A DNA stretch of 33,540 nt from a bacterium (lineage in GTDB: Bacteria > Patescibacteriota > Gracilibacteria > Peribacterales > Peribacteraceae). Below, piece by piece: positions 1-28,793 of the stretch. The notes beneath the pieces are model-generated. The model was not told the origin of the DNA, did no database searches, and saw only the letters and a list, made by a program, of their open reading frames with translations. Location of the stretch: the NCBI GenBank assembly GCA_027592135.1, contig JAQCIJ010000011.1:1-33540 (forward strand). The letters run 5' to 3'. Each line of letters opens with the position of its first letter. Position 1 is the first letter of the stretch. The position numbers and the translations under genes are program-made.

Positions 1-3000
1 ACCATCAGAAATACAGCTACGCTTAGAGCTAGTAGTTTCAACGGTGGAATCATTGATACGAGTAACGAGACACAGACCAGTGTACTTTGTCCTACACCAA
101 ACCTTGCCATTACAAAGACCGTTAATAATAACACGATCAATCTCGGTGACGATGTTATCTACACAATAGAAGTAACGAACAATGGAACAGGACTGGCCGA
201 TGATGCTCAAGTCACCGATGCCATTCCAAACGGATTTACCTACAATGACGGTGCAAGTGATAGCCGTTGTAACCAAGTAGGAAGCAATGTGATCTGTGGA
301 CCTGTAGATCTTTCTGCAGGTGCAACAACAGAATTTGATCTCAACTTTACCGCAACCTACCCTGTTATCTGTGATAGCACAGTACCAAACAGAGCATATG
401 TAGAAGCACTCAACCACAGTATAGTTTACAGCAGCATTGTCGATGTGTACGTTACCTGTCCTCGTGCAGTCCTTGATATTACTAAGGTTGCGGACAAAAG
501 CACTGTAGAACACAACGATCTTGTAACATTCACCATAAATGTAGAAAACACGAGTGGTAATATTGCAAGAAACGTGGCCGTATCAGATACGATTCCAGAT
601 CACCTCATGTACTTGGATGCAAACTCTGACGCCGCATGTGCCCAAGTAGGAAGCGATGTAAAGTGTGGACCATTCGATCTTGCAGCAGGTACAAATCGTG
701 ATCTTGATCTCGTCTTTAAGGTTTTGGATACCGCTCCATGTGGAAGTACAATCGCAAACCTTGCCGATGTCAATGCAGACAATGCAGCACCATCTTGGTC
801 GAACCAAGAAGATATCACTGTGAACTGTCCACAACCTGGCATCAGTGTTCAGAAGATTGTAGACCTATCAACTCTTTCAGGAGGATCAGGTATACAGGAA
901 ATTGAGTATGCTATCGAAGTAAGCAACACAGGACTTGCAGACCTTACAAATATCGAAGTTCTCGATGCCATTCCTGCAGGGCTTAGCTACCTAGACGGTG
1001 TTAGCGACAGTCGTTGTGATGAAGTGTCAGGAAGCATTGAGTGTGACGAATCGCTTATCCTCCCTGGCCAAGATACAACGTTCATCATCACATTTGCAAT
1101 TGATACTGATACGTACTGTGGTCAGACATTTTCTAACTACGCTTCTGTCGTTTCAGATCAAACAACAAGCGTACTGACAAATACGGTAACCACAACTGTT
1201 AGCAACTGTCCTACAAACCCCAACTTCACAGCAACAAAGACTGCAAGTGAAACTACTGTAGAAATTGGTGATACATTCCACTACACAATCACACTCGAAA
1301 ATACTGGAAGTGCAGAACTTACAGGCCTCTGGATAATCGATCAGATTCCTGCAGGACTTACATTCATCGATGCAAGCCCAACAAACCCAGACTGTTTCCT
1401 TCAAGGAAACGCTGTAAAGTGTGGAGATGATCCTATCGCTATCGGAGCCACTGCCACCTATGACATCTACTTCACCGTAAACCACTACGCGCAGTGTGGA
1501 ACCATCGATAACATCGCTCAAATCCTCTTCCTTGGAAACAATCTAGACGAATACACGAACACCGAGCGTATCACTGTAGCGTGTCCTGATGCTGATCTTC
1601 AGGTAACCAAAATTGCCAGTGCAAGCGAAGTGAATATCGGAGACGTATTTCTTTACACAATACGTGTCAACAACATTAGTCCTATAGATGCTATCAATGT
1701 AAATGTCTTCGACAGTGTAATCGATGAACTCACTTTCCGATCAGATATCAGTTCTATTGAATGTAGTCTTGATCCTATCAATGATGAAATATCCTGTGGA
1801 TCTGTCAATATTGCAAGTGGTGGATATGCAGAATTCTTTGTGTACTTCGAGGTAAATAACTACGCAGTCTGTGGTTCTACGATCTACAACCAAGCAGAAG
1901 CAATTGCCGATAACGCAGGCCCTGCACTTTCAAACTCAGAAAGTGTAGACATCATCTGTAACACACCAGAAGCAGATCTTGAGATACAGAAAACAGGAGA
2001 TTCTCAGATTATGCGAGGAGACACACTAGTCTACCAGCTCCTTGTTACAAACAATGGGCCAGACGATGCAGAAAATGTTACGATTACCGACTTTGTTCCT
2101 GATGTTCAAATACAAGACACAAGCAACCGTACGAACCTTATCTTTAATGCAGCACAATCAGACAGTGCATGTTACCAAGCGGGAAACACGATTACCTGCC
2201 CAGGATTAGACATCGATGCAGGAGATGACCTTCTTATTAACGTAGCATTCGATGTGCCATTCAACGCTCACTGTGCCAAACCTATAAGAAACTACGTAGA
2301 AGTATGGGCTACAACATTTGACCCAATCAGTGCTAATAACGAAGACGAGCACTACGCAACTGTTATCTGTGCTACCAACACATTGAACATCCAAAAAGTT
2401 GGACCACCAATTGTTCGTAAAGGAGATCTCATTACCTACACAGTACGTGTTGAAAATAACCTCGGATACGACACAACGCGGAACCGAATGATTGACCCAA
2501 TCCCCGGTCACTTAGACTACGTCAGTGCAAACGACTCTAGTTGCTACAAAGAGACACAGACGAACGAAGTTATCTGTGGAGAATTCGATCTAGCCGCAGG
2601 AGACTTCATCGAGTTTCAACTAACATTCCGCGTAAAGAATACTGCAATCTGTAACCGCAACATCATAAACATTGCAGACGTATGGTCCAACCACCCAGGA
2701 GTGAACCCAGAGTGGAGTAACGCCGTAAGTACAAAGGTACTCTGTGATGCAGTGCTCGTAATCAGCAAGACGGATCACCGTACAACTGTAAGTCCAGGAC
2801 AATCAATGCTCTATGAAGTACTTGTAACCAATACATCAAGCTCTGATGCAACAACGGTGACAATAGTAGATACACTTCCAAGTAACTTCGTATTCTCCAA
2901 TGCTAGTGCTGGAGGCGTATACAATGCATCTAGTCGCACAGTGACTTGGGTAATTGATATCGATGCATTCGATACAGAGATTCTCTCTGTATCAGGAGCA

Positions 3001-5097
3001 GCAAACGCAAACGCGCAAAGTGGCAATACGCTTCTCAACCAAGTATGTATCCAAAATGGTGCATGTGCTAGTGATACTACTACTGTAACGGGCAATCAGA
3101 CTCCAATCTTTAGAATCGTAAAGACGGACCACCGTTCTACGGTTAAACCTGGCGAGACACTTACGTACGAAATCGTCGTAAGTAACATCAGTAATACTGA
3201 TGCTCCTACTGTAGAAGTTATCGATACCTTGCCACAGCACGTAACATTCGTCAGCGCGAACGGTGGTGGGGTATTCAATAACAACGGAAAAGTACGATGG
3301 ACTGGCGGACTAGACGCTAACTCATCTGTCATTCTCGAAGTAGTAGTAACAGTCGATGCAACAGCTCCAGATAACTTCTTCCTTCTAAACCAGGTAGAAA
3401 TCACTGGAGGTCCATCTGATGACGATATCACAAAGGTGGTACTCGACCCTATCGCAGAAGGATGTATCGACATTAAGAAGGAGACATTCACTGCAGAAGG
3501 AACTCCTCTTACTCCGGTGACACAATTCACCTTCACGCTTGATGGTGGAACACAGACTGTCCTCAACAACAGCCTTGGAAACGCTAGGTTCATAAACGTT
3601 CCAGTGGGTAACCACACAATTACCGAAACAATTCCTGCTGGTTGGACACAAGAGAATGTGACACCAGCCGGAGGAATAGTATCTGTACCTGCAGGAAGCA
3701 CATGTGCAACAGTGACATTCAAGAATAAGCAAGTTGCTGTAGGAACTGCTCAGTTTACTATCTCAAAGACAGATAACCTCGCAACTGCAGAGCCAGGAGA
3801 TACTCTCACCTACAGAATGGAGATTAGAAACATCTCTACTATCGATGCGACAAACGTCGAAGTAAAAGATACCGTTCCTGATTACACAGAGTTCATCTCT
3901 GCAAGTGACGGTGGAAGCAAAAATGGAAACACGGTAACTTGGGTCTTTCCTATCGCAGCTGGAGCAACAAAGAGCTTCGAGATGAGGGTAAACATTGAGG
4001 AAAACGCCGACGACGGCGATGTAATCTTCAACCAAGTAAGAATCACTAATGGTCCATCTGCTACAGATACCACACGTATCGAAGACGATAATGATAATGA
4101 TGATGATGATGATAATGATGATAATGATGATGACGATACTGATATTCGTGTAACCATCAACGACGATCCAGATCCAATCGATATCTGTAACGACGACGAT
4201 CTCGAATACGAAATCCGCCTCACCAACTCCTCAAACTCTAACGAAGAAGTAGATGTGATTGCTATCATCGATAGCGATACCGACTACCAAAGCTCGAGCG
4301 ATGGTGGAAAAGAAAAGAGTGGAGATCGTGTCGAGTGGGATAATGTAAAGGTGAACCGTAACTCAAACCGCACATTGCGCCTTCGTGTCCGTGTCGAAAG
4401 CGGTGCACGAGATGGTGATACACTACGACTTCGTGTCGGAGTAAGTGACGGTGACGAAGACACCGAAGTGACCAGAGTACGCAACAATGGTTGTGCTGAT
4501 GATGATGACGAGGGTACTCCTTCTACTACTACTCCAGACCTTACCATCGATAAAACGGCAAACACCTCAGAAGCACTTGCAGGAAGTTCCGTATCGTACA
4601 CCATCACTATCCGCAACACTGGTGGATCTGACATCTCTGATGCCATCCTTACCGATGACTACCCAGAACAGTACGTAGACATTACCGATACAGGTGGAGG
4701 ATCTGATGCTGGAGGACGCCTCACATGGAACCTTGGAACACTTCGGTCTAACTCTACAACAGTCGTACGATACAACGTGCGCCTAAAGCCAGGAGTGACT
4801 CGTGGAACAACAATCCGCAACACAGCAACTGTACGCAGTGGAACCATCACCAGAACGGATGACCACGTGATCGTTGTCCCTACGCCACCACAAACAGGAC
4901 TGGGAGGATTTATAAAGAGTCTTACACAGTCCGAAAGTTACCTCTCAGAAGTAAACACTGAAACCTCTACACTTGTAGCAGTAGTGCCTCAGCAAAGAGA
5001 AGTAAGCGCTACAACCCTTCCACTCGTGATATGGATCACGACAATGCTCACAGGACTTGGTATGGGTGGAATGTTCGGACGAAAGTTCTTGTTCTAA
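1..5097 (+). CDS. Giant DUF11-repeat surface protein, 5' end outside window
   Basis: The frame is open from base 1, so the gene begins upstream; the first in-window ATG (289) is internal. About 1,698 residues are visible. Tandem DUF11 (isopeptide/CARDB-like beta-sandwich) units start near nt 100, 466, 838, 1222, 1591, 1972, 2380, 2749, 3103 and 3745, each opening with a [L/I]xIxKT-type strand, and two more follow after 4140. The first seven carry four spaced Cys each, probably two disulfides; later ones mostly lack them. A SpaA/prealbumin-like domain (GNHTITETIPAGW) lies at about 3460-3732. A run of Asp/Asn codons at 4081-4140 forms an acidic spacer. The C-terminus has PQTG (4888-4899), a roughly 40-residue linker, one hydrophobic segment and a short GRKFLF tail. 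This is probably a long stalk-like exported protein anchored by its C-terminus. Ligand and role are unknown. Confidence 0.9.
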   Translation, partial: TIRNTATLRASSFNGGIIDTSNETQTSVLCPTPNLAITKTVNNNTINLGDDVIYTIEVTNNGTGLADDAQVTDAIPNGFTYNDGASDSRCNQVGSNVICGPVDLSAGATTEFDLNFTATYPVICDSTVPNRAYVEALNHSIVYSSIVDVYVTCPRAVLDITKVADKSTVEHNDLVTFTINVENTSGNIARNVAVSDTIPDHLMYLDANSDAACAQVGSDVKCGPFDLAAGTNRDLDLVFKVLDTAPCGSTIANLADVNADNAAPSWSNQEDITVNCPQPGISVQKIVDLSTLSGGSGIQEIEYAIEVSNTGLADLTNIEVLDAIPAGLSYLDGVSDSRCDEVSGSIECDESLILPGQDTTFIITFAIDTDTYCGQTFSNYASVVSDQTTSVLTNTVTTTVSNCPTNPNFTATKTASETTVEIGDTFHYTITLENTGSAELTGLWIIDQIPAGLTFIDASPTNPDCFLQGNAVKCGDDPIAIGATATYDIYFTVNHYAQCGTIDNIAQILFLGNNLDEYTNTERITVACPDADLQVTKIASASEVNIGDVFLYTIRVNNISPIDAINVNVFDSVIDELTFRSDISSIECSLDPINDEISCGSVNIASGGYAEFFVYFEVNNYAVCGSTIYNQAEAIADNAGPALSNSESVDIICNTPEADLEIQKTGDSQIMRGDTLVYQLLVTNNGPDDAENVTITDFVPDVQIQDTSNRTNLIFNAAQSDSACYQAGNTITCPGLDIDAGDDLLINVAFDVPFNAHCAKPIRNYVEVWATTFDPISANNEDEHYATVICATNTLNIQKVGPPIVRKGDLITYTVRVENNLGYDTTRNRMIDPIPGHLDYVSANDSSCYKETQTNEVICGEFDLAAGDFIEFQLTFRVKNTAICNRNIINIADVWSNHPGVNPEWSNAVSTKVLCDAVLVISKTDHRTTVSPGQSMLYEVLVTNTSSSDATTVTIVDTLPSNFVFSNASAGGVYNASSRTVTWVIDIDAFDTEILSVSGAANANAQSGNTLLNQVCIQNGACASDTTTVTGNQTPIFRIVKTDHRSTVKPGETLTYEIVVSNISNTDAPTVEVIDTLPQHVTFVSANGGGVFNNNGKVRWTGGLDANSSVILEVVVTVDATAPDNFFLLNQVEITGGPSDDDITKVVLDPIAEGCIDIKKETFTAEGTPLTPVTQFTFTLDGGTQTVLNNSLGNARFINVPVGNHTITETIPAGWTQENVTPAGGIVSVPAGSTCATVTFKNKQVAVGTAQFTISKTDNLATAEPGDTLTYRMEIRNISTIDATNVEVKDTVPDYTEFISASDGGSKNGNTVTWVFPIAAGATKSFEMRVNIEENADDGDVIFNQVRITNGPSATDTTRIEDDNDNDDDDDNDDNDDDDTDIRVTINDDPDPIDICNDDDLEYEIRLTNSSNSNEEVDVIAIIDSDTDYQSSSDGGKEKSGDRVEWDNVKVNRNSNRTLRLRVRVESGARDGDTLRLRVGVSDGDEDTEVTRVRNNGCADDDDEGTPSTTTPDLTIDKTANTSEALAGSSVSYTITIRNTGGSDISDAILTDDYPEQYVDITDTGGGSDAGGRLTWNLGTLRSNSTTVVRYNVRLKPGVTRGTTIRNTATVRSGTITRTDDHVIVVPTPPQTGLGGFIKSLTQSESYLSEVNTETSTLVAVVPQQREVSATTLPLVIWITTMLTGLGMGGMFGRKFLF
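4081..4140 (+). repeat. GAT/AAT trinucleotide repeat coding an acidic spacer
   Basis: The segment is almost entirely GAT, AAT and GAC codons and encodes about 20 Asp/Asn residues between two DUF11 units. It may be a flexible or calcium-binding linker. Unit changes of 3 bp would keep the frame, so length variation between strains is plausible. Confidence 0.8.
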
Positions 5098-5186
5098 AGA
5101 AAGAAACCGAAGAATCCGAAGAGTCCAAGGAAAACGAAGTACCTAGGATTCCTCGGTTTCCTCGGTTTCTTCGGATTCCTTTCTTC
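5093..5186. terminator. Long imperfect palindrome between convergent genes
   Basis: The left arm is purine-rich (repeated CCGAAGAAT/CCGAAGAGT words) and the right arm is its imperfect complement (CTCGGTTTC, TTCGGATTCC), centred on CCTAGG near 5141. It fills the whole gap between the DUF11 gene (+) and pth (-), so a bidirectional transcription-ending hairpin is the simplest reading. There is no clean T-run, and the arms also look like degenerate 8-9 bp tandem repeats. Confidence 0.5.
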
Positions 5187-8252: not shown

Positions 8253-8405
8253 TTTGTAGTTAGAATACGCACTACAACGCCGCACAAAAACAGTGTAAAG
8301 ATACTGGCAGGAGGTAAAAATTACTGATACTAAAGAGGAAAAGTGGAATTCTTTTGCAGTCATTCGATAAAACTGTTGTTAAAATGAACAACAGTTATTC
8401 GTAAA
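8253..8405. other. Gene-free interval between nusG and murJ
   Basis: It holds a 7 bp inverted repeat just after nusG (TTGTAGT...ACTACAA, about 8254-8277), an isolated AGGAGGT near 8310, and the hairpin at 8371-8396. No ORF of reasonable length or recognisable similarity was found, and no trace of rplK was seen. Confidence 0.6.
8371..8396. terminator. Hairpin between convergent nusG and murJ
   Basis: A perfect 10 bp stem (AACTGTTGTT / AACAACAGTT) with a 6 nt loop lies between two convergent genes. There is no T-run on either side, so it is a likely but not canonical bidirectional terminator. Confidence 0.55.
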
Positions 8406-8421
8406 TTATTCATTATTCATT
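8406..8421 (-). repeat. Heptad repeat at the 3' end of murJ
   Basis: TTATTCA occurs twice in tandem plus a partial copy. It includes the murJ stop codon and encodes the last residues (MNNE). It resembles the other 7-8 bp arrays in the window. Confidence 0.6.
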
Positions 8422-9737
8422 ACCGCCCTCACTCTCCTCGGCAACATCACACTTAATCCCACAAGTTGAATCCCCTGTCCTATCGCGAATCCAATCGCGA
8501 GGCTGTAGACCCCATAGGTAGGGGCTAAGTACCACGCAGCCGTAATCGCACTTGCACCATTTAACACACTAAAGATCGCAGGAGTTGTCGTATGCTTTGT
8601 TGCATAGAACGCCCGAAGCAATAAATGGTTGATACTTTCAAATGGAATACTGATTGCATAAAATGTCAGACATAATGTAAACACCGGAAGCACATGCGTA
8701 AGGCTGACAAGACGAGCGGCAATTGGCGCTACCATTACGAGTACTATTGCTCCAGGGATAGTCATTACCAACATAAAGAGAATTCCCTTACGCAAATAAA
8801 TATAGTACCGCTTCTTTTCTTTCTTAGCAGATGCCTGACTTAATAAAGAGAATGCAGATTGTGCGAGTGCTATACCTGCAACCCCAACTGCAACTGACTG
8901 AAAGTTTCTTGCATAGGCATTGATGGTAATCGAACCCGCATCAAGTCCGGATGCTACTGTATCAAACAAAAGTAGCTGTGCCTGGAGAGCACCAAGGGCA
9001 AGCATGCGAGGCCACATGAGATGAAGAAGTTCTGAGAGGTCTGGATGGAAAATTTGAAATGTTGAAATGTTGAAATGTTGAAAACCTCCTTGAAGTCCAA
9101 TCGCAAAAAATCTTAAGAGGACATAAACAACCGCCCCCCCAAGCGTCCCAAACATTGGGCCATATACACCGTACTGTGGGGTAAGATAGATAGTTCCGAG
9201 TATCGTCCCCAATGTGTACAGCATTGGCGTGAGTCCGTAGATCCAATACTTCTGTATAGTAATAAGATACTGACCAAATGCATTACCAAAGACAAAAAGA
9301 AAATTCGTTATAAGTGCAAGCCGTGCAAAGTCGATATACAGCACAAGTGACGGTCCAGTAAAGCTAACAAGATACGGAGCGATCTGATCCATAAACAAAC
9401 TCAGGACCAAAGCAACTAGTCCAAATACAATTGCCGCAAGCGTGACAATGGAATTGAGAAGGTCATGCATCTCTTTCTTCTTCCCGTCTGCATGGTACGA
9501 AGCCAGCATTGGAACAAGTGCCACAGAGAACCCCGCCATAATCATCATCTGAAAACAGAGGTCCGAAGGACGAAACGAGGCAATGTAAATATCGACTGTA
9601 TCAAGGCCAGGAAAGGTTGATGCCAACGTACGATCTCGGATCAGTCCCATAAGAGAAGCGCCTAGCTGCATAACAGCCAAAACTGCCGCTCCTCCGAGGA
9701 TACGATTCTGGCCAAAATGTGCCTTGAGGGCTCTCAT
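8406..9737 (-). CDS. murJ: Lipid II flippase MurJ
   Basis: 443 residues with about 12-14 hydrophobic helices throughout. The N-terminus (GAAVLAVMQLGASLMGLIRDRTLASTF) carries the MurJ/MviN signature with the conserved LxxLxGxxRD-type segment. MurJ moves the peptidoglycan precursor lipid II across the membrane. The frame opens at 9827, but the ATG at 9737 matches the family N-terminus and has an extended -10 box 9 nt upstream. An 8 bp tandem repeat inside the gene (9053-9084) encodes FQHFNISTFQIFH, probably in a loop. Together with MurC it shows that peptidoglycan is made. Confidence 0.93.
   Translation of the reverse strand: MRALKAHFGQNRILGGAAVLAVMQLGASLMGLIRDRTLASTFPGLDTVDIYIASFRPSDLCFQMMIMAGFSVALVPMLASYHADGKKKEMHDLLNSIVTLAAIVFGLVALVLSLFMDQIAPYLVSFTGPSLVLYIDFARLALITNFLFVFGNAFGQYLITIQKYWIYGLTPMLYTLGTILGTIYLTPQYGVYGPMFGTLGGAVVYVLLRFFAIGLQGGFQHFNISTFQIFHPDLSELLHLMWPRMLALGALQAQLLLFDTVASGLDAGSITINAYARNFQSVAVGVAGIALAQSAFSLLSQASAKKEKKRYYIYLRKGILFMLVMTIPGAIVLVMVAPIAARLVSLTHVLPVFTLCLTFYAISIPFESINHLLLRAFYATKHTTTPAIFSVLNGASAITAAWYLAPTYGVYSLAIGFAIGQGIQLVGLSVMLPRRVRAVMNNE
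9053..9084 (-). repeat. Octad tandem repeat inside murJ
   Basis: Four copies of GTTGAAAT (first TTTGAAAT, last GTTGAAAA, read on the plus strand) lie inside the murJ reading frame. The unit of 8 is not a multiple of three, so gain or loss of one copy would shift the frame. Confidence 0.85.
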
Positions 9738-13133: not shown

Positions 13134-15611
13134 GTGACTATCTCCCCTTCTTTAACGACGCTTCCCTTCTCGACTGCGAGTGACGATGAAATTTCGAAAC
13201 TGCTGAAAGAATATCAAATCGGCCTGACTGTCGATGAAGCAAAAAAGATTGTAGACCTCCTCGGAAGAAACCCAACCCTAACCGAAGCGGTAATCTGGGG
13301 CATACAAGGAAGCGAGCACTGTAGCTATAAATCTAGTCGTCGATTTTTAAAGAACTTTGTCACCGAAGGGAAACACATAATCCTCGGCCCTGTCGAAGAT
13401 AGTGGAATCGTTGCCATAACAGATAGCACAGATGGAAAGCGTTGGGGTTTTGTGGTGACCCATGAATCCCACAACCACCCAAGCCAGATTGTTCCTTTCG
13501 AAGGTGCTGCTACAGGAATAGGGGGAACTGTCCGCGATGTGCTGTGTATGGGGGCGCGTGTTATCGGTTGTATGGATATGCTGCGGCTTGGAGATTTAGA
13601 AACAAAAGAATCAAGGACGATCGCCAAAGAAGTTATTCGAGGAATTGGCGGATACGGAAACCCTTTGGGAATACCAAACCTTGGTGGAGATACGGTGTTT
13701 GATAGTGGGTATAACAGCAACTGTCTCGTAAATGCTATCGCTCTTGGAATTGTTCGAGAAGATGAAATCATCCACAGCTACTGTCCCGCGGAAGCAGGAG
13801 AAGTGGGATACGACATCATCCTCGTCGGAAAACCTACCGATAGATCAGGTTTTGGAGGAGCATCGTTTGCCTCCGCCTCTATGGAAGAAGACAAAAGCGA
13901 ACAAAACAGTGGAGCGGTTCAGGAACCAAACCCCTTCCTCGAACGTCACCTACTAGCATCATTCTATGCACTATTTGACTGGCTCGTTGCAAACAACAAA
14001 CTCGATAAGATCAGCTGTAAAGACTTAGGCGCTGGTGGTGTCGTCTGTGCTTCTGTAGAACAAGTCGTCGACCAGGGCTTTGGAGCCACTGTAAACTTGG
14101 ATAATGTGCACACCGGACTAGAGGGGCTTCCTGCAGAAGTTATCGCCTGTGCAGAAACACAGGAACGACTCTGCTTTACGTGCCATCCAGATCTAACAGA
14201 ACATATCCTCAAGCACTTCAACGTTACCTGGGACCTGCCAAGTGTTGCCAAAAACGCACGGGCAAGCTTAGTGGGAAAAGTGACAACTGATGGTATCTAC
14301 ACCTGCACCTATAAAGGAGAAATTGTCTGCGAAGCCTCGGCTGAAGCGCTGACGTGTGGAATTCAATATAAACGTCCAACCAATTTACAAACATTGGACC
14401 GTAAAGAACCAGAGATCACATGCAAAGATGACAAGTTGCGAGTTGCAAGTTGCAAGTTGCAAGTTTCTATCACAGAAGTATTCGCAACTATGCTTGCACA
14501 CCCCAATCACGCCTCTAAGTCCCCTGCATTCTTGCACTTTGATAAAAATGTAATTGGGAACACGATCATCGAAGCAGGTGAAGCAGATGCAGCAGTGATA
14601 GCTCCTCTACAAGATTTACAGAGTTATGTATTAGATGGGCAGCACCCAGGATGGGATCTATCCGAAGAGCAGCGTTGGCGCGGAGTCGCTATCGCTGCAG
14701 ATGGAAATGGACGGTACGGTCGCATCGACCCATATTGGCAAGGAGTAAATGCCGCAGTCGAATCGATGTATAACGTTGTTGCCGTTGGTGGAACACCACG
14801 CGCGCTTACCGATTGTCTTAACTACGGAAACCCAGAAATCCCTGAACAACTTGCTCAGCTCGAAGCAGGTGTCCAAGGAATCGCCGATGCAGGAAAATCT
14901 ATTCATTTCGAAGGAGAACCTGTTCCGGTTATCTCTGGAAACGTATCGCTCTACAACGGAAAACCCAATGGATCTGCCATCGACCCAACAGCCATCGTAT
15001 CGTGTACAGGAATTCTCCCAGATGCGAGAAAAGCTGTCACCATGCAGCTCAAAAACTCAGACTCTACCATTATTCTTCTTGGAGAACGCAAAGATGAATG
15101 TGGAGGATCTGCGTACTATCAAATTCTCGAAGAGCTCGCAAAAGCGGATCGAGATACCCTACTCGGTGCCAATGTGCCAAAGCCTGACTTCGATGATACT
15201 GCCAAAATGCTCAATCTGGTCTTAGGACTCATCCGAGGAGGTGTCATCGATAGCTGCCATGATATTGCTGATGGAGGCCTCGTACTTGCCGCTTTTGAGA
15301 TGATGCTTCCTCAACGAAGACAAGGAGGCTCTATTGGTCTAGAACTTGATCTAGATGCCCTAGAAAGCCCTCTAAATAGCGACAAACTGCTATTTTCTGA
15401 GTCACACGGGTTCCTCGTAGAAACTTCGGAAGAAAAGGCCTCACAAGTGCTTTCTGATGCCGAGAAAGCAGGTCTAGAGGCAAAAGTACTGGGTAAAACA
15501 ACCAAAAACGCATCTCTAAAGATTCAACGAGGTGAAACCAGTCTCCTAGACCAGGAGATGCAAAAATTACATCATATTTGGGAAAACGGACTAAAGTCTC
15601 AACTAGTATAG
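13134..15611 (+). CDS. purL: Phosphoribosylformylglycinamidine synthase, large subunit
   Basis: This enzyme catalyses the ATP-dependent fourth step of purine synthesis, FGAR to FGAM. At 825 residues it is longer than the usual small PurL (about 740) and lacks a fused glutaminase, so separate PurQ and PurS would be expected elsewhere. Motifs: SEHCSYKSS (active-site His), THESHNHPSQIVPFEGAATG, GGDTVFDSGYNSN, KDLGAGGVVCASVE, and the second half with WRGVAIAADGNGRYG and DCLNYGNPE. GTG at 13134 is chosen because homology begins there and a -10 box lies 6 nt upstream. The frame extends back to 13068, but that stretch looks non-coding. A heptad array at 14435-14462 encodes LRVASCKLQVS in an inter-domain linker. 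No other purine gene is in the window. Confidence 0.93.
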   Translation: MTISPSLTTLPFSTASDDEISKLLKEYQIGLTVDEAKKIVDLLGRNPTLTEAVIWGIQGSEHCSYKSSRRFLKNFVTEGKHIILGPVEDSGIVAITDSTDGKRWGFVVTHESHNHPSQIVPFEGAATGIGGTVRDVLCMGARVIGCMDMLRLGDLETKESRTIAKEVIRGIGGYGNPLGIPNLGGDTVFDSGYNSNCLVNAIALGIVREDEIIHSYCPAEAGEVGYDIILVGKPTDRSGFGGASFASASMEEDKSEQNSGAVQEPNPFLERHLLASFYALFDWLVANNKLDKISCKDLGAGGVVCASVEQVVDQGFGATVNLDNVHTGLEGLPAEVIACAETQERLCFTCHPDLTEHILKHFNVTWDLPSVAKNARASLVGKVTTDGIYTCTYKGEIVCEASAEALTCGIQYKRPTNLQTLDRKEPEITCKDDKLRVASCKLQVSITEVFATMLAHPNHASKSPAFLHFDKNVIGNTIIEAGEADAAVIAPLQDLQSYVLDGQHPGWDLSEEQRWRGVAIAADGNGRYGRIDPYWQGVNAAVESMYNVVAVGGTPRALTDCLNYGNPEIPEQLAQLEAGVQGIADAGKSIHFEGEPVPVISGNVSLYNGKPNGSAIDPTAIVSCTGILPDARKAVTMQLKNSDSTIILLGERKDECGGSAYYQILEELAKADRDTLLGANVPKPDFDDTAKMLNLVLGLIRGGVIDSCHDIADGGLVLAAFEMMLPQRRQGGSIGLELDLDALESPLNSDKLLFSESHGFLVETSEEKASQVLSDAEKAGLEAKVLGKTTKNASLKIQRGETSLLDQEMQKLHHIWENGLKSQLV
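14435..14462 (+). repeat. Heptad tandem repeat inside purL
   Basis: Four 7 bp units, GTTGCGA followed by three GTTGCAA, lie in the purL reading frame. A change of one unit would shift the frame. Confidence 0.85.
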
Positions 15612-16736: not shown

Positions 16737-18008
16737 ATGAAACAATTCTTCTCTCTTACAGTCTTAACAGGTCTCATGCTTGCGTTACTGCCTACTCCCC
16801 CCCTGTATGCACAGGAACTCGAAGGCATTGGAAGTATTTCTTTTCAGCAAATAGCCCCAGAAGAAGACCCAGATGTCATAGGAACGTGGACGCTTGTACG
16901 ACCGGGAAATATTCGTACAGAAGGTGACGAGAAAAATTTTAATTTCGAAGAACTCGAAGCGGGAATGTACACATTCTCTACAGTTCTTCCGCAAGGAACA
17001 TCAGCAGTGATAGAGCTTTTGCTCAATGGACAACTCGTAGAATCTGTAGAAAGGCCACAGATATCTATCCCTCTTGATGGCTTGGACAGATACCTTATTA
17101 AAATCACCTACACATACAGTCGAACAGGATTGGTTGCAGTAAACAGTTCTCCTGGAGGATTAACATTTACGCTTAAAGGGCCAAATGAAACTGTGCATGT
17201 CGGTCAAACCCCTGCCTCATTTACAGGGCCAGAAGGACAATGGACTGCGTACTTCGAACAAATTGAAGGGTGTCCTAAAATACCTGCACAATCAGACAAA
17301 CTTGTAAAAGATAGCCGTATAACACTCTCTGTAAGTATTATCTGTGACAACTTGAAAGATTCTGACATTGGAAAGCAGCAAGAGAAATCTCTCGAGTTTG
17401 TTACCGTAACTGTTGATGGCAGAAATGTGATTTTCGAAGATGTGCACACAGAAGATTGGTTTGCACCCTATGTCTATACCGTAGCAAAAACAGGTATAAT
17501 AAGTGGATATAAAGACGAATCTGGAAATCCAAAAGGCATCTTTGGTCCTAGTGAAAATGTCACCATTGCGCAACTTTCTAAAATTGCACACGAATTAAGT
17601 GGATTGGATGAAACAAAAATTCGTGTCCCAGTTATAAATACCAAAGCGAAGAATACGTGGTTTGAACAGTATTTTGCCTCTGCAGAGCAACTATGGTGGG
17701 AAGTATGGCGAGACAGAAGAATAAACCCAGCCAGACCTGCTAAACGAGATGAGGTTATCGCCACTATTCTACGTGCTCTCAACGTAAGAAGAGTTTGGGC
17801 AGAAGGTAAAACATTTAGTGATGTAAAACCGACTGATAAATATGCAAGTGCAATTGAAACTGCAGCGGCGGATGGACTTATTGATATAGGGGAAAAATTT
17901 CGATCAGATGACCCTATCAATCGAGCAGAAATGGCGAAGATTATTGCAAGAGCTATTGATCTCTACATCGAAGATACCTCAGAGTCGCGAGGAAAAGTTA
18001 GCCAGTAG
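16737..18008 (+). CDS. S-layer homology (SLH) domain protein
   Basis: 423 residues from the ATG at 16737, which begins a signal peptide (MKQFFSLTVLTGLMLALLPT, cleavage near YAQ); the upstream TTG at 16680 is less likely. The N-terminal half is beta-rich with a PEGA-like unit (GLVAVNSSPGGLTFTLKG...). The C-terminal half carries three SLH repeats: FEDVHTEDWFAPYVYTVAKTG, a diverged middle one ending AKRDEV, and FSDVKPTDKYASAIETAAADG ending NRAEMAKII. SLH domains bind pyruvylated secondary wall polymers through a TRAE-like motif; here NRAE is best kept in the third repeat. There is no transmembrane anchor at the C-terminus, so attachment is probably through the SLH domains. The last 11 bp overlap the end of murC on the other strand. 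Confidence 0.9.
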   Translation: MKQFFSLTVLTGLMLALLPTPPLYAQELEGIGSISFQQIAPEEDPDVIGTWTLVRPGNIRTEGDEKNFNFEELEAGMYTFSTVLPQGTSAVIELLLNGQLVESVERPQISIPLDGLDRYLIKITYTYSRTGLVAVNSSPGGLTFTLKGPNETVHVGQTPASFTGPEGQWTAYFEQIEGCPKIPAQSDKLVKDSRITLSVSIICDNLKDSDIGKQQEKSLEFVTVTVDGRNVIFEDVHTEDWFAPYVYTVAKTGIISGYKDESGNPKGIFGPSENVTIAQLSKIAHELSGLDETKIRVPVINTKAKNTWFEQYFASAEQLWWEVWRDRRINPARPAKRDEVIATILRALNVRRVWAEGKTFSDVKPTDKYASAIETAAADGLIDIGEKFRSDDPINRAEMAKIIARAIDLYIEDTSESRGKVSQ

Positions 18009-19269
18009 TCAGTTGCTCTGCAACGTGCGTTACGTCACCTGCACCCATCACAATAAGAACGTCATCCTGTTGTAATATTTTACAACAGAGTTGTTCTTTG
18101 GCTTGCTCTAGCGATCCTCCATATACAGTTTCTGCATGGATATCTGCAGTAAATTGTTCGATATCCACAATTCCTTTCTCGACATCTGGACGGGCATCAT
18201 AAATATCGGTCGTTACGACGAAGTCAGCCCCATCGAACGCTATAAGAAAATCATTGTAGAACCGAATCGTTCTATCGTGGGTATGTGGTTGAAATAGACA
18301 CACAATTCTCCTACCAGGATACTTTTCTCTCACAGCAGAAATCGTTGCTGCTATTTCTACTGGATGATGCGCATAATCATCGATCACCGTTACCCCTTGG
18401 TCTGTATCCCCTTTTACCTCCATACGTCTCCACGTTCCCGTAAAACTCTTGAGGGATTCTTCTGCAGCAATCTCTAACTGATCGGCAAGTGAAAGTACAA
18501 GCTGAGCGTTCTGCTTCATGTGTAGTCCTGAGACTGATAACTCTATAAGAGGATTTCGATCTGCATCCATAATGAACACTTCGGCTTTTTGTATTAGTGT
18601 CTCACAAATAGCTCTACATCCGTCATCGTCCATATGCGTTATCAGCAATGCATCATCGGGTAGTCGTGCAATAAACGCACGATATGCATTCTGATAGTCA
18701 TCTAAATCCTTGAATGCATCAAAATGATCTCCATCAACATTCGTCATCAAAATAATATCTGGATACAGATGAAGAAACGATCCTCTGTATTCACAGGCTT
18801 CAAGTAAGAATATAGTACTATTTCCCTTACGCCAGTTTCTCCCATTAAGCTGTGGTACTTTTGTTCCTACGACAACTGTAGGATCGAGCCCTGCATCGAT
18901 AAGTACTTGGGCAGCCATTGCAGTAGTTGTTGATTTTCCATGTGTTCCACACACAGCGATTACTGTAAAATCTTTACTAAGATTCCCGAGAGCCTCGAAA
19001 TAACTTTCTTGCGTAATGCCATAGCTCTCAGCAGATTTTCTCTCTGGCGCATCTATAGGAATAGCTTCGGAATACACAAACAGATCTGCATCTTCTGGTA
19101 CATGTGATCCATCCTGGCAATCGTATACCGAAATCCCTTGAGAGATAAGATCCTCAGTGAGCACAGAAAGTGAAGAGTCACTTCCGGATACTTCGTGACC
19201 CAAAGCATTCTGAAGTGCTGCATATGCAGAGAGGCCAATGCCGCCGATTCCAGAACAATAAATTTTCAA
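17998..19269 (-). CDS. murC: UDP-N-acetylmuramate--L-alanine ligase
   Basis: This cytosolic Mur ligase adds L-Ala to UDP-MurNAc using ATP. 423 residues, slightly short for the family. The Rossmann motif GIGGIG (7-12), the P-loop GTHGKSTTT (108-116), the EACEYRGSFL segment, DDYAHHPVEI and FQPHTHDRT are all in the MurC order. The start is TTG at 19269, forced because MKIYCSGIGGIG is the family N-terminus. A TATAAT box about 45 nt upstream gives a real leader that contains a pyrimidine-rich heptad array. The gene is divergent from an FtsB/DivIC-like gene and overlaps the SLH gene by 11 bp at its end. Confidence 0.95.
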   Translation of the reverse strand: MKIYCSGIGGIGLSAYAALQNALGHEVSGSDSSLSVLTEDLISQGISVYDCQDGSHVPEDADLFVYSEAIPIDAPERKSAESYGITQESYFEALGNLSKDFTVIAVCGTHGKSTTTAMAAQVLIDAGLDPTVVVGTKVPQLNGRNWRKGNSTIFLLEACEYRGSFLHLYPDIILMTNVDGDHFDAFKDLDDYQNAYRAFIARLPDDALLITHMDDDGCRAICETLIQKAEVFIMDADRNPLIELSVSGLHMKQNAQLVLSLADQLEIAAEESLKSFTGTWRRMEVKGDTDQGVTVIDDYAHHPVEIAATISAVREKYPGRRIVCLFQPHTHDRTIRFYNDFLIAFDGADFVVTTDIYDARPDVEKGIVDIEQFTADIHAETVYGGSLEQAKEQLCCKILQQDDVLIVMGAGDVTHVAEQLTTG

Positions 19270-19297
19270 GTGGAAAGTGGAAAGTGGAAAGTGGATA
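19270..19297 (-). repeat. Heptad array in the murC leader
   Basis: Four 7 bp units on the plus strand: three GTGGAAA and one GTGGATA. In the murC mRNA they read TATCCAC then TTTCCAC three times, directly before the TTG start. Confidence 0.9.
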
Positions 19298-19309
19298 ATA
19301 GAAGTGACC

Positions 19310-19319
19310 TGCTATTATA
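19310..19319. promoter_or_regulatory. Overlapping bidirectional -10 boxes, murC and FtsB-like gene
   Basis: Plus strand: TGCTATTAT (extended -10, 19310-19318) for the gene at 19369. Minus strand: TATAAT (19314-19319) for murC. The two -10 elements share bases, so polymerase can probably occupy only one at a time. Confidence 0.55.
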
Positions 19320-19333
19320 GCTACAGAATATCA

Positions 19334-19361
19334 GTTTTCTGTTTTTCGTTTTCCGTTTTCA
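19334..19361 (+). repeat. Heptad array in the leader of the FtsB-like gene
   Basis: Four 7 bp units GTTTTCT, GTTTTTC, GTTTTCC, GTTTTCA end 7 nt before the ATG at 19369. It is pyrimidine-rich in the sense strand, mirroring the array in front of murC. Confidence 0.85.
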
Positions 19362-19368
19362 ACTGTAA

Positions 19369-19818
19369 ATGTCCTATCAACACTCAGAACCGCTCTCAAA
19401 ACAGCTCACTATCGTGATCGGTCTTTCTGTTGTGGGATTTATGGCATTCGGTCTTGCACTTTCCTTTTATAGAAACCTCCTCTTCGAGCAGACTCTTGAA
19501 GGGATATCACAACAAAACAAAGTTCTAAGGCAACAAATAGAACAGGGGTACCAAGATTTGGAGCATTTTAAGAGCACACAATACAAGGATAAATATGCCA
19601 AAGAAAACTTAAACCTCGTCCGTCCAGGCGAAAGAACTCTCATTATTACACAAAATCCTGAGGATAATCCATTTGTCCTTACACAGCCTCAATCAGAGCC
19701 TACACAACAGCAGGAAGCCGCATATTTCGAGCTTTTACGACAAATGCCTACACTGGAGCACTGGAAGCTCTACCTCTTTCACAGAGAAAAAATTGCAGAA
19801 ATTAAGATGGGACTATAA
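19369..19818 (+). CDS. FtsB/DivIC/FtsL-like septum formation initiator
   Basis: 149 residues. It has a short cytoplasmic N-terminus, one transmembrane helix (about 13-34), a coiled coil (about 38-70, ISQQNKVLRQQIEQGYQDLEHF) and the DivIC/FtsB-type block YAKENLNLVRPGERTLII. These small bitopic proteins form part of the divisome core and help activate septal peptidoglycan synthesis. The C-terminal 50 residues are extended compared with E. coli FtsB. It is divergent from murC. FtsB, DivIC and FtsL cannot be told apart with confidence from sequence alone. Confidence 0.8.
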   Translation: MSYQHSEPLSKQLTIVIGLSVVGFMAFGLALSFYRNLLFEQTLEGISQQNKVLRQQIEQGYQDLEHFKSTQYKDKYAKENLNLVRPGERTLIITQNPEDNPFVLTQPQSEPTQQQEAAYFELLRQMPTLEHWKLYLFHREKIAEIKMGL

Positions 19819-27820: not shown

Positions 27821-28759
27821 CTACTCAATAATAAGAGACCTATGGAGAAGTTCGAGACCACTTATTATTTCTTGATGTACTTCAGAGTGAATTTGACTAA
27901 GTGTCGATAACTTGTCCCCATCACATTGTGAAATTATTTTTACCTCTTTACCCAGTGCCAACGCTGCAAGTGCCCCGTGATACCGCTCCGAGATGACAAA
28001 ACCTGCCGAAGAGATCTCTAATATTAAATTGTTAAGGGTACGTACTTTTATAACACGAGAAGATGTACCTATTGTTTTTGCAAGCATTTGACAGTAGTCC
28101 GATTCTGATTTCTTATCGGGTTGCATAGAAAGAACTTTCACCTGCTCTGGACTCATTGACTTTATTAACTCTTGTACTGCCATAGTAAGATTGTCACTTG
28201 AGTTTTTACGTGGTATTACAACGAGTATATTTTTTGTACAGACATCAATTTTTTGGCTTTCTATTAAAGAAAATACAGGATCAAATGATTGAACACATTT
28301 TTTACCCATGACCAACTCCCCTACCCGGTTATACGACAGTGAATCACGGACAGAAATACTTGCTGATTTACGGCAAACTTCACTGGTAAGATACGTTCCA
28401 AGTCTCGTGCGAAACGGACCAATACCTTGAAATGCAAGATGAACAGGTTTCTTCAGTAAAAAAGCAAGCTGTGCATGTACCCACCAAATACAACACGCAT
28501 AAACAGATTCTGTATCCGTAAATAATGAACCACCCCCAAAGACAACAGCATCACTTTGGCGGTACGCAGAGATTGTCGAGAGCCATTTACCTCCAAGGAA
28601 TGATCGAATCCCTGCGGGCAAACGGGCAACTTCACCCCCTGTTGGATGCGCAGAAATTACTGTCCATTCTATTTCAGAGAACTCTTGGAGAAAATAGTCC
28701 TTAAGAGCTTGGTCCCCTAAGTTTCCTACGCCGAAATTACCAATAAGCAGACACTTCAT
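27821..28759 (-). CDS. CsaB-like polysaccharide pyruvyl transferase
   Basis: 312 residues of the polysaccharide pyruvyl transferase family (PF04230). Family marks are the N-terminal GNFGVGNLGDQAL, VVFGGGSLFTDTES in the first lobe, the central DPVFSL and the C-terminal ISERYHGALAALALGKEV. CsaB adds pyruvate ketals to secondary wall polymers, making the ligand that SLH domains bind. A gene coding an SLH protein lies in the same window (16737-18008), which supports this reading. Homologues acting on other exopolysaccharides exist, so the exact acceptor is uncertain. A pyrimidine-rich heptad array sits immediately before the ATG. Confidence 0.88.
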   Translation of the reverse strand: MKCLLIGNFGVGNLGDQALKDYFLQEFSEIEWTVISAHPTGGEVARLPAGIRSFLGGKWLSTISAYRQSDAVVFGGGSLFTDTESVYACCIWWVHAQLAFLLKKPVHLAFQGIGPFRTRLGTYLTSEVCRKSASISVRDSLSYNRVGELVMGKKCVQSFDPVFSLIESQKIDVCTKNILVVIPRKNSSDNLTMAVQELIKSMSPEQVKVLSMQPDKKSESDYCQMLAKTIGTSSRVIKVRTLNNLILEISSAGFVISERYHGALAALALGKEVKIISQCDGDKLSTLSQIHSEVHQEIISGLELLHRSLIIE

Positions 28760-28765
28760 AGTGTA

Positions 28766-28793
28766 GAGGATAGTGGATAGTGAATAGTGGATA
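28766..28793 (-). repeat. Heptad array upstream of the CsaB-like gene
   Basis: Four 7 bp units; in the sense of the gene they read TATCCAC, TATTCAC, TATCCAC, TATCCTC and end 6 nt before the ATG. It is closely related to the array before murC. Confidence 0.85.

Follow-up and report, generated by a model that had tools for sequence, protein, structure and literature searches.

Inverted pairs of 7–9-bp tandem arrays, with units that change between species, in the genomes of Peribacteraceae

In a stretch of 33,540 nucleotides (hereafter the window) from a bacterium whose relatives are Candidatus Peribacter (Peribacteraceae, CPR), we found that the tandem arrays on the murC side and the FtsB side of a divergent gene pair are the two arms of one hairpin-like, phased-repeat inverted element with a divergent promoter in its loop. 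Elements of this kind make up a class: they exist in number, their arms pair, the purine arm and the pyrimidine arm follow a fixed order, the unit changes at fixed sites, and most copies are absent from congeners. We give about even odds (a probability of roughly 0.5) to the reading that this is a dispersed, fast-turnover class of 7–9-bp phased-repeat inverted elements, with 3.5–5 units per array, that spread by short-patch copying, are mostly of little consequence and are kept in some leaders. The genomes compared are metagenome assemblies, and the gene predictions in them come from a home-made caller.

The first-pass annotation had described mirror-image arrays of four units on either side of two overlapping, divergent −10 boxes, and both the arrays and the boxes are there as described (Table 1). 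The window contains four period-7 arrays at the score used, versus 0.05 in its shuffles. The mirror symmetry is also real; what had gone unnoticed is that it makes the two arrays an inverted pair, in which GGAAA in one arm faces TTTCC in the other in every heptad. The first arm is purine-rich on the plus strand and reads TCCACTT four times in the direction of murC, and the second arm, seen from the minus strand, is a run of GAAAAC(N) units, with five of the seven positions in each heptad complementary to the first. The inverted score of this pair (12) was reached in 1 of 60 shuffles, and its DNA fold z is −2.6. The −35 boxes that go with the two −10 boxes are poor. murC starts with a TTG (19267–19269) that overlaps the end of the first array, so that no spacer separates array and start.

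Table 1. Arrays, promoter boxes and neighbouring genes in the window
Feature	Position	Strand	Basis or remark
Arm 1: AAGTGGA ×4, 100% match	19268–19295	+	purine-rich
Loop of 38 bp between arms 1 and 2, containing the overlapping divergent −10 boxes	19296–19333		
TATTAT, −10-like, toward the FtsB-like gene	19313–19318	+	5/6 match
TATAAT, −10-like, toward murC	19314–19319	−	6/6 match
Arm 2: GTTTTCT/GTTTTTC/GTTTTCC/GTTTTCA (GTTTTCN ×4, degenerate, about 85% match)	19334–19361	+	
murC, three Mur ligase domains	17998–19269	−	TTG start overlaps the end of arm 1
FtsB/DivIC-like gene	19369–19818	+	PF04977, at cut-off
Third array: TAGTGGA ×4.3 (TATCCAC-type on the minus strand)	28764–28793	−	
Polysaccharide pyruvyl transferase (PS_pyruv_trans, CsaB-like) gene	27821–28759	−	PF04230
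AGTTGCA array within purL	14434–14465	+	
TTTCAACA 8-mer array within murJ	9054–9083	−	
Short ATTATTC array, murJ 3′ end	8405–8422	−	
Period-9 inverted pair (AAGAATCCG... / TTCCTCGGT...) between convergent genes	5101–5174		absent in G004

A third array had been placed directly before the ATG of the CsaB-like gene. It is present, and ends about 6 nt ahead of that ATG on the minus strand; a search for an inverted partner of this array found none. At the site of the purL array, congeners have unrelated sequence of different length, and in the protein the array adds the residues LRVASCKLQVS where the enzyme is variable. A GAT repeat, Asp/Asn-rich, lies at 4087–4144 within an ORF of 1,602 aa or longer at 1–5097. 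An Rfam search gave tRNA-Met as its sole match.

Across the host genome (1.12 Mb), AGTGGANAGTGGA occurs 70 times and its reversed control gave 0 matches. In the first 393 kb, mostly contigs known to contain AGTGGA arrays, strong arrays numbered 45 for period 7, 10 for period 8 and 15 for period 9, where shuffles gave 0–0.33 (0.33 for period 7); other short periods yielded nearly none. A set of 203 kb that was not picked on such matches contained 15 period-7 arrays, or 7.4 per 100 kb, from which we roughly estimate 80–110 seven-bp arrays in the whole genome, plus 8- and 9-bp arrays, with many different units. More than 30 distinct period-7 units were present in 636 kb. Array density drops to 0.8 per 100 kb in the congener G003 and to 0.6 in other families of the class. 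Period-7 array lengths peak at 3.5–4.5 units and fall sharply beyond 5, with nearly none longer, unlike those of period-9 arrays, which fall steadily. Two arrays stand out in form. In one (L036, 9447–9511) the 7-bp phase is kept while the unit drifts through TATTACT, TATATCT, CTTTACT, CTATACT, TTCTACT and TTCCACT, and in the other (L045, 3607–3739) a 9-mer (TCCTCGCAC) runs for 133 bp, much longer than the rest.

Of 50 period-7 arrays, 20 (about 40%) lie inside predicted genes, compared with a coding share of 86% of bases; gaps are thus preferred, but genes are not spared. The arrays outside coding sequence adjoin unrelated genes. This distribution gives no support to a specific tie with wall and division genes, which the setting of the arrays in the window had suggested. 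We also rejected three accounts of the units themselves: an ACT trinucleotide common to all heptads, which is due to the host's main unit (8/26 in other genera); a DnaA-box cluster (TTATCCACA occurs 8 times versus 7 expected, and the sole enriched 9-mer is TATCCACT); and a supply of stop codons by the purine arm, as AAGTGGA and GGAAAAC contain none.

Pairing was tested on 189 arrays, each oriented with its pyrimidine strand 5′→3′, by seeking a complement within 90 bp and repeating the search in 60 permutation runs. A complement lay 5′ of the pyrimidine arm for 52 arrays (permutation mean 6.8, maximum 13) and 3′ of it for 6 (permutation mean 1.0). Direct copies flanked 8 arrays on the 5′ side and 8 on the 3′ side, and about 72% of the arrays had no detectable partner. 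In paired elements the median length is 22 nt for the arm and 27 nt for the loop, and the median RNA fold z is about −6. Their order is purine–loop–pyrimidine in 41 cases and the reverse in 4, and the same order prevails in every setting (tandem 17:2, convergent 7:1, divergent 9:1, in-gene 7:0). The arms are not simple copies of one another, because GGAAAAC pairs with the mismatched TTTCCAC and never with GTTTTCC: among 24 GGAAAAC sites, TTTCCAC lies 3′ of 10 and 5′ of none, and the perfect complement accompanies 0. These are the arm types of the murC–FtsB pair in the window, and the GGAAAAC...TTTCCAC combination was found repeatedly at unlinked sites within the genus. In two species (L039, 9584–9719, and L247, 7789–7925), the purine and pyrimidine arrays of an in-gene pair lie on either side of conserved coding sequence about 90 nt long, so that the loop there is native DNA and not an insert.

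The pyrimidine-rich arrays in leaders had been read as possible ribosomal protein S1 sites, unstructured initiation regions or slippage-prone control elements in an organism with little SD use. The low SD use is borne out, as an SD-like 4-mer precedes 5.2% of 421 genes and is found equally often in shuffled leaders. Arrays before starts also show a strand bias: among those within 20 nt upstream of starts in four data sets, 31 were pyrimidine-sense in the mRNA and 9 were not. However, arrays also lie inside genes (purL and murJ in the window), and those near starts are a minority of all arrays. The pyrimidine bias at starts is real, yet it has its mirror image at stops and forms a single rule with it. 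At starts, the ratio of pyrimidine-sense to other arrays within 40 nt was 19:1 for paired and 18:7 for single arrays; at stops it was 0:11 and 7:15, respectively. We attribute the bias at starts to the purine–loop–pyrimidine geometry of the pairs. It is unlikely, in our judgement, that the leader elements are explained by selection for the pyrimidine-rich mRNA arm as a putative binding site for S1 (or a Csp/CsrA-like protein) or as an unstructured initiation region. The bias at starts, seen also in single arrays, would fit such a role, as would SD-like motifs at background level and two leader arrays that are letter-perfect in G003, and MacGregor (2015; PMC4679880) proposed likewise for TAACTGA arrays. 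Such a role does not call for mutually complementary arms, though, and it sits poorly with the mirrored bias after stops, with pairs in convergent gaps and in genes, and with the absence of most arrays from congeners.

The divergent ftsB–murC arrangement is conserved in the family, and its gap is a favoured site for arrays at which neither their presence nor their sequence is kept. Arrays occur in 21 of 48 resolved ftsB–murC gaps of Peribacteraceae, where shuffles reach at most a few per cent, and 20 of the 48 gaps have significantly complementary halves. The unit is a 7-, 8- or 9-mer that differs in nearly every species, and the arms are mostly complementary. Gaps of 56 bp or less have no array, and most gaps of at least 86 bp have one. 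Among size-matched gaps of 86–220 bp, arrays were present in 17 of 20 ftsB–murC gaps versus 10 of 78 others (Fisher p = 1.4e-9). The congeners G002 and G003 have a gap of 30–33 bp and G001 one of 86 bp, in each case with no array.

Complementary arms at this hot spot in many species, together with the fold scores of paired elements, could point to a hairpin that acts on RNA or DNA, be it as a terminator, as an insulator between divergent promoters or as a stabiliser of mRNA ends; the period-9 pair between convergent gene ends in the window would suit it too. We consider this explanation distinctly unlikely. The divergent promoter of the window element sits in the loop, so neither the murC nor the FtsB-side transcript would carry both arms, and in the host genome arrays are sparsest in convergent gaps, of which 13.7 kb contain 6 arrays, compared with 39 in 39 kb of tandem gap and 12 in 16.8 kb of divergent gap. 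An intrinsic terminator was rejected, since a terminator-like site was looked for at the murC/FtsB-like gap and none was found, and convergent gaps show no enrichment.

When host arrays were compared with orthologous sites in congeners, an array of any kind was present in 13 of 106 comparisons and none in 93. The comparison with contigs C2 and C9 of G003 was not selected for arrays. Whole elements are absent from congeners (80 nt versus 0; 75–81 versus 2–8), and inside genes arrays take the place of unrelated codons, in some cases with no change in length (30/30, 33/33). Between species it is the units that change, not the unit counts, and one 8-mer unit found at four sites in the host genome is absent from 38 of 38 relatives. 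At the murJ site, the unit is TTTCAACA in the host, TTTTCAGA in G001 and AAATACG (a 7-mer) in G002, and G003 has no array. In 4 of 5 Peribacter species this coding site in the murJ loop (L215–L218) has an array of 7- or 8-bp units, which differ between the species and once lie on the opposite purine/pyrimidine strand. As for conservation in relatives, the murC array is absent from G002 and G003, but two other leader arrays in two divergent gaps (L043, 12422–12441 and 14997–15020) are letter-perfect in G003 at a local identity of 83–84%. The gene after the first of these resembles pyrE when read by eye. Their identity suggests that some leader arrays may be under selection or lie within conserved promoters.

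All units at the murJ site change in concert, which is consistent with arrays being a mutational by-product of replication slippage and quasi-palindrome template switching, with neither function nor dispersal; that hairpin arms can be formed and corrected by template switching is established (PMC8794818). An origin by these processes alone is improbable. TATCCAC, TTTCCAC and ACGAACCA each occur at many unlinked sites, where they replace unrelated sequence with no local seed, and the arms are heterotypic, with fixed mismatches and a polarity. Movement by a transposase, as in REPIN/RAYT- or MITE-type elements, is barely credible despite the small dispersed inverted pairs and a Y1 (IS200-like) transposase in the host genome, and RAYT/IS200 mobility was rejected: G003 (99% complete) has arrays and no Y1_Tnp match, the IS200-like copy of the host has GC hairpins of its own, and not arrays, on its flanks, and the loops of different elements have no common sequence and no constant core. 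That transposase gene (L264), with its GC hairpins, lies near the end of contig C52.

Under the dispersed, fast-turnover reading that we prefer, arrays would arise and spread by the copying of short DNA patches and not by a transposase. Candidate routes may include slippage within an array, template switching and patch replacement between sites. Arrays would settle at low-cost places, such as gene gaps and protein loops, and a minority of leader arrays would be retained; the probable reason is that, where SD sequences are hardly used, a pyrimidine-rich leader that stays unpaired, or the promoter around it, works well. The conserved leader arrays in G003 and the non-chance preference for the ftsB–murC gap point to function at some sites, which counts against this reading. 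It also has against it the roughly 72% of arrays with no detectable partner and the recurrent mismatched arm pair (5 of 7), which one-step template switching does not produce. Short-patch illegitimate recombination is a mechanism of this sort and serves here as a lead only; our literature search on it found nothing. We also entertain, more tentatively, the idea that unit-agnostic paired 7–9-bp arrays, in which a pyrimidine arm always follows a purine arm, each arm has about four units and the arms are combined in fixed, mismatched ways (GGAAAAC with TTTCCAC), may be written into gaps and genes by some copying process that replaces native patches, the unit being re-invented in each lineage and the pairing kept.

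Heptad arrays have previously been described and explained unit by unit, as G-quadruplexes or as S1 sites. Here the layout of four units in convergent purine–pyrimidine pairs is constant while the unit varies freely, so explanations tied to a single sequence cannot be general. Array-rich and array-poor species within one genus provide a system in which to ask what makes 7–9-bp tandem repeats in bacteria, and the question bears on how much of the evolution of promoters and protein loops in small CPR genomes is patch replacement of this kind.

The closest known systems are the GGGAATC heptads of Xanthomonas and the TAACTGA heptads of Beggiatoaceae. Cyanobacterial STRR heptads form several tandem families per genome, as do the Peribacteraceae arrays, and we know of no description of their pairing or polarity. 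These heptads (from Calothrix and others) are mentioned by Rehm et al. (2015; PMC4692102), who described GGGAATC and GGGGA(C/T)T heptameric repeats in Xanthomonas and Nostoc, built on one G-rich, G-quadruplex-capable unit. The Xanthomonas heptads have a mode of four units, which was linked to G-quadruplexes, and form 70–75 convergent inverted pairs. The Peribacteraceae arrays resemble them in the 7-bp unit, the preference for about four units, the genome-wide spread, the convergent inverted pairs and a purine strand in antisense orientation ahead of starts and in sense orientation behind stops (PMC4692102). They differ in having many units, including 8- and 9-mers, species-variable arms and many copies in genes. 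Moreover, the window units AAGTGGA, GTTTTCN and TAGTGGA have no G-run longer than two, and most other units likewise; a four-unit mode without G-tracts counts against G-quadruplexes as the general cause of that mode.

The TAACTGA repeats of marine Beggiatoaceae are arrays of 2–6 units, most of them facing forward and placed immediately ahead of starts, in genomes with little SD use, and binding of S1, Csp or CsrA was proposed for them (MacGregor 2015; PMC4679880). Like our arrays, they are heptads with a fixed strand toward the nearby start (31:9 here) and low SD use. By contrast, they consist of a single unit, with related heptamers rare and one inverted pair (PMC4679880), whereas the Peribacteraceae arrays have many units and frequent pairing. 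In the P6b stem of the Nostoc trnL intron, which is built of heptad repeats of the classes TDNGATT and NNTGAGT, the whole motif switches between lineages while pairing is kept, as we observed here; unlike the dispersed Peribacteraceae arrays, that stem is a single intron site with a clear RNA function (PMC4476775).
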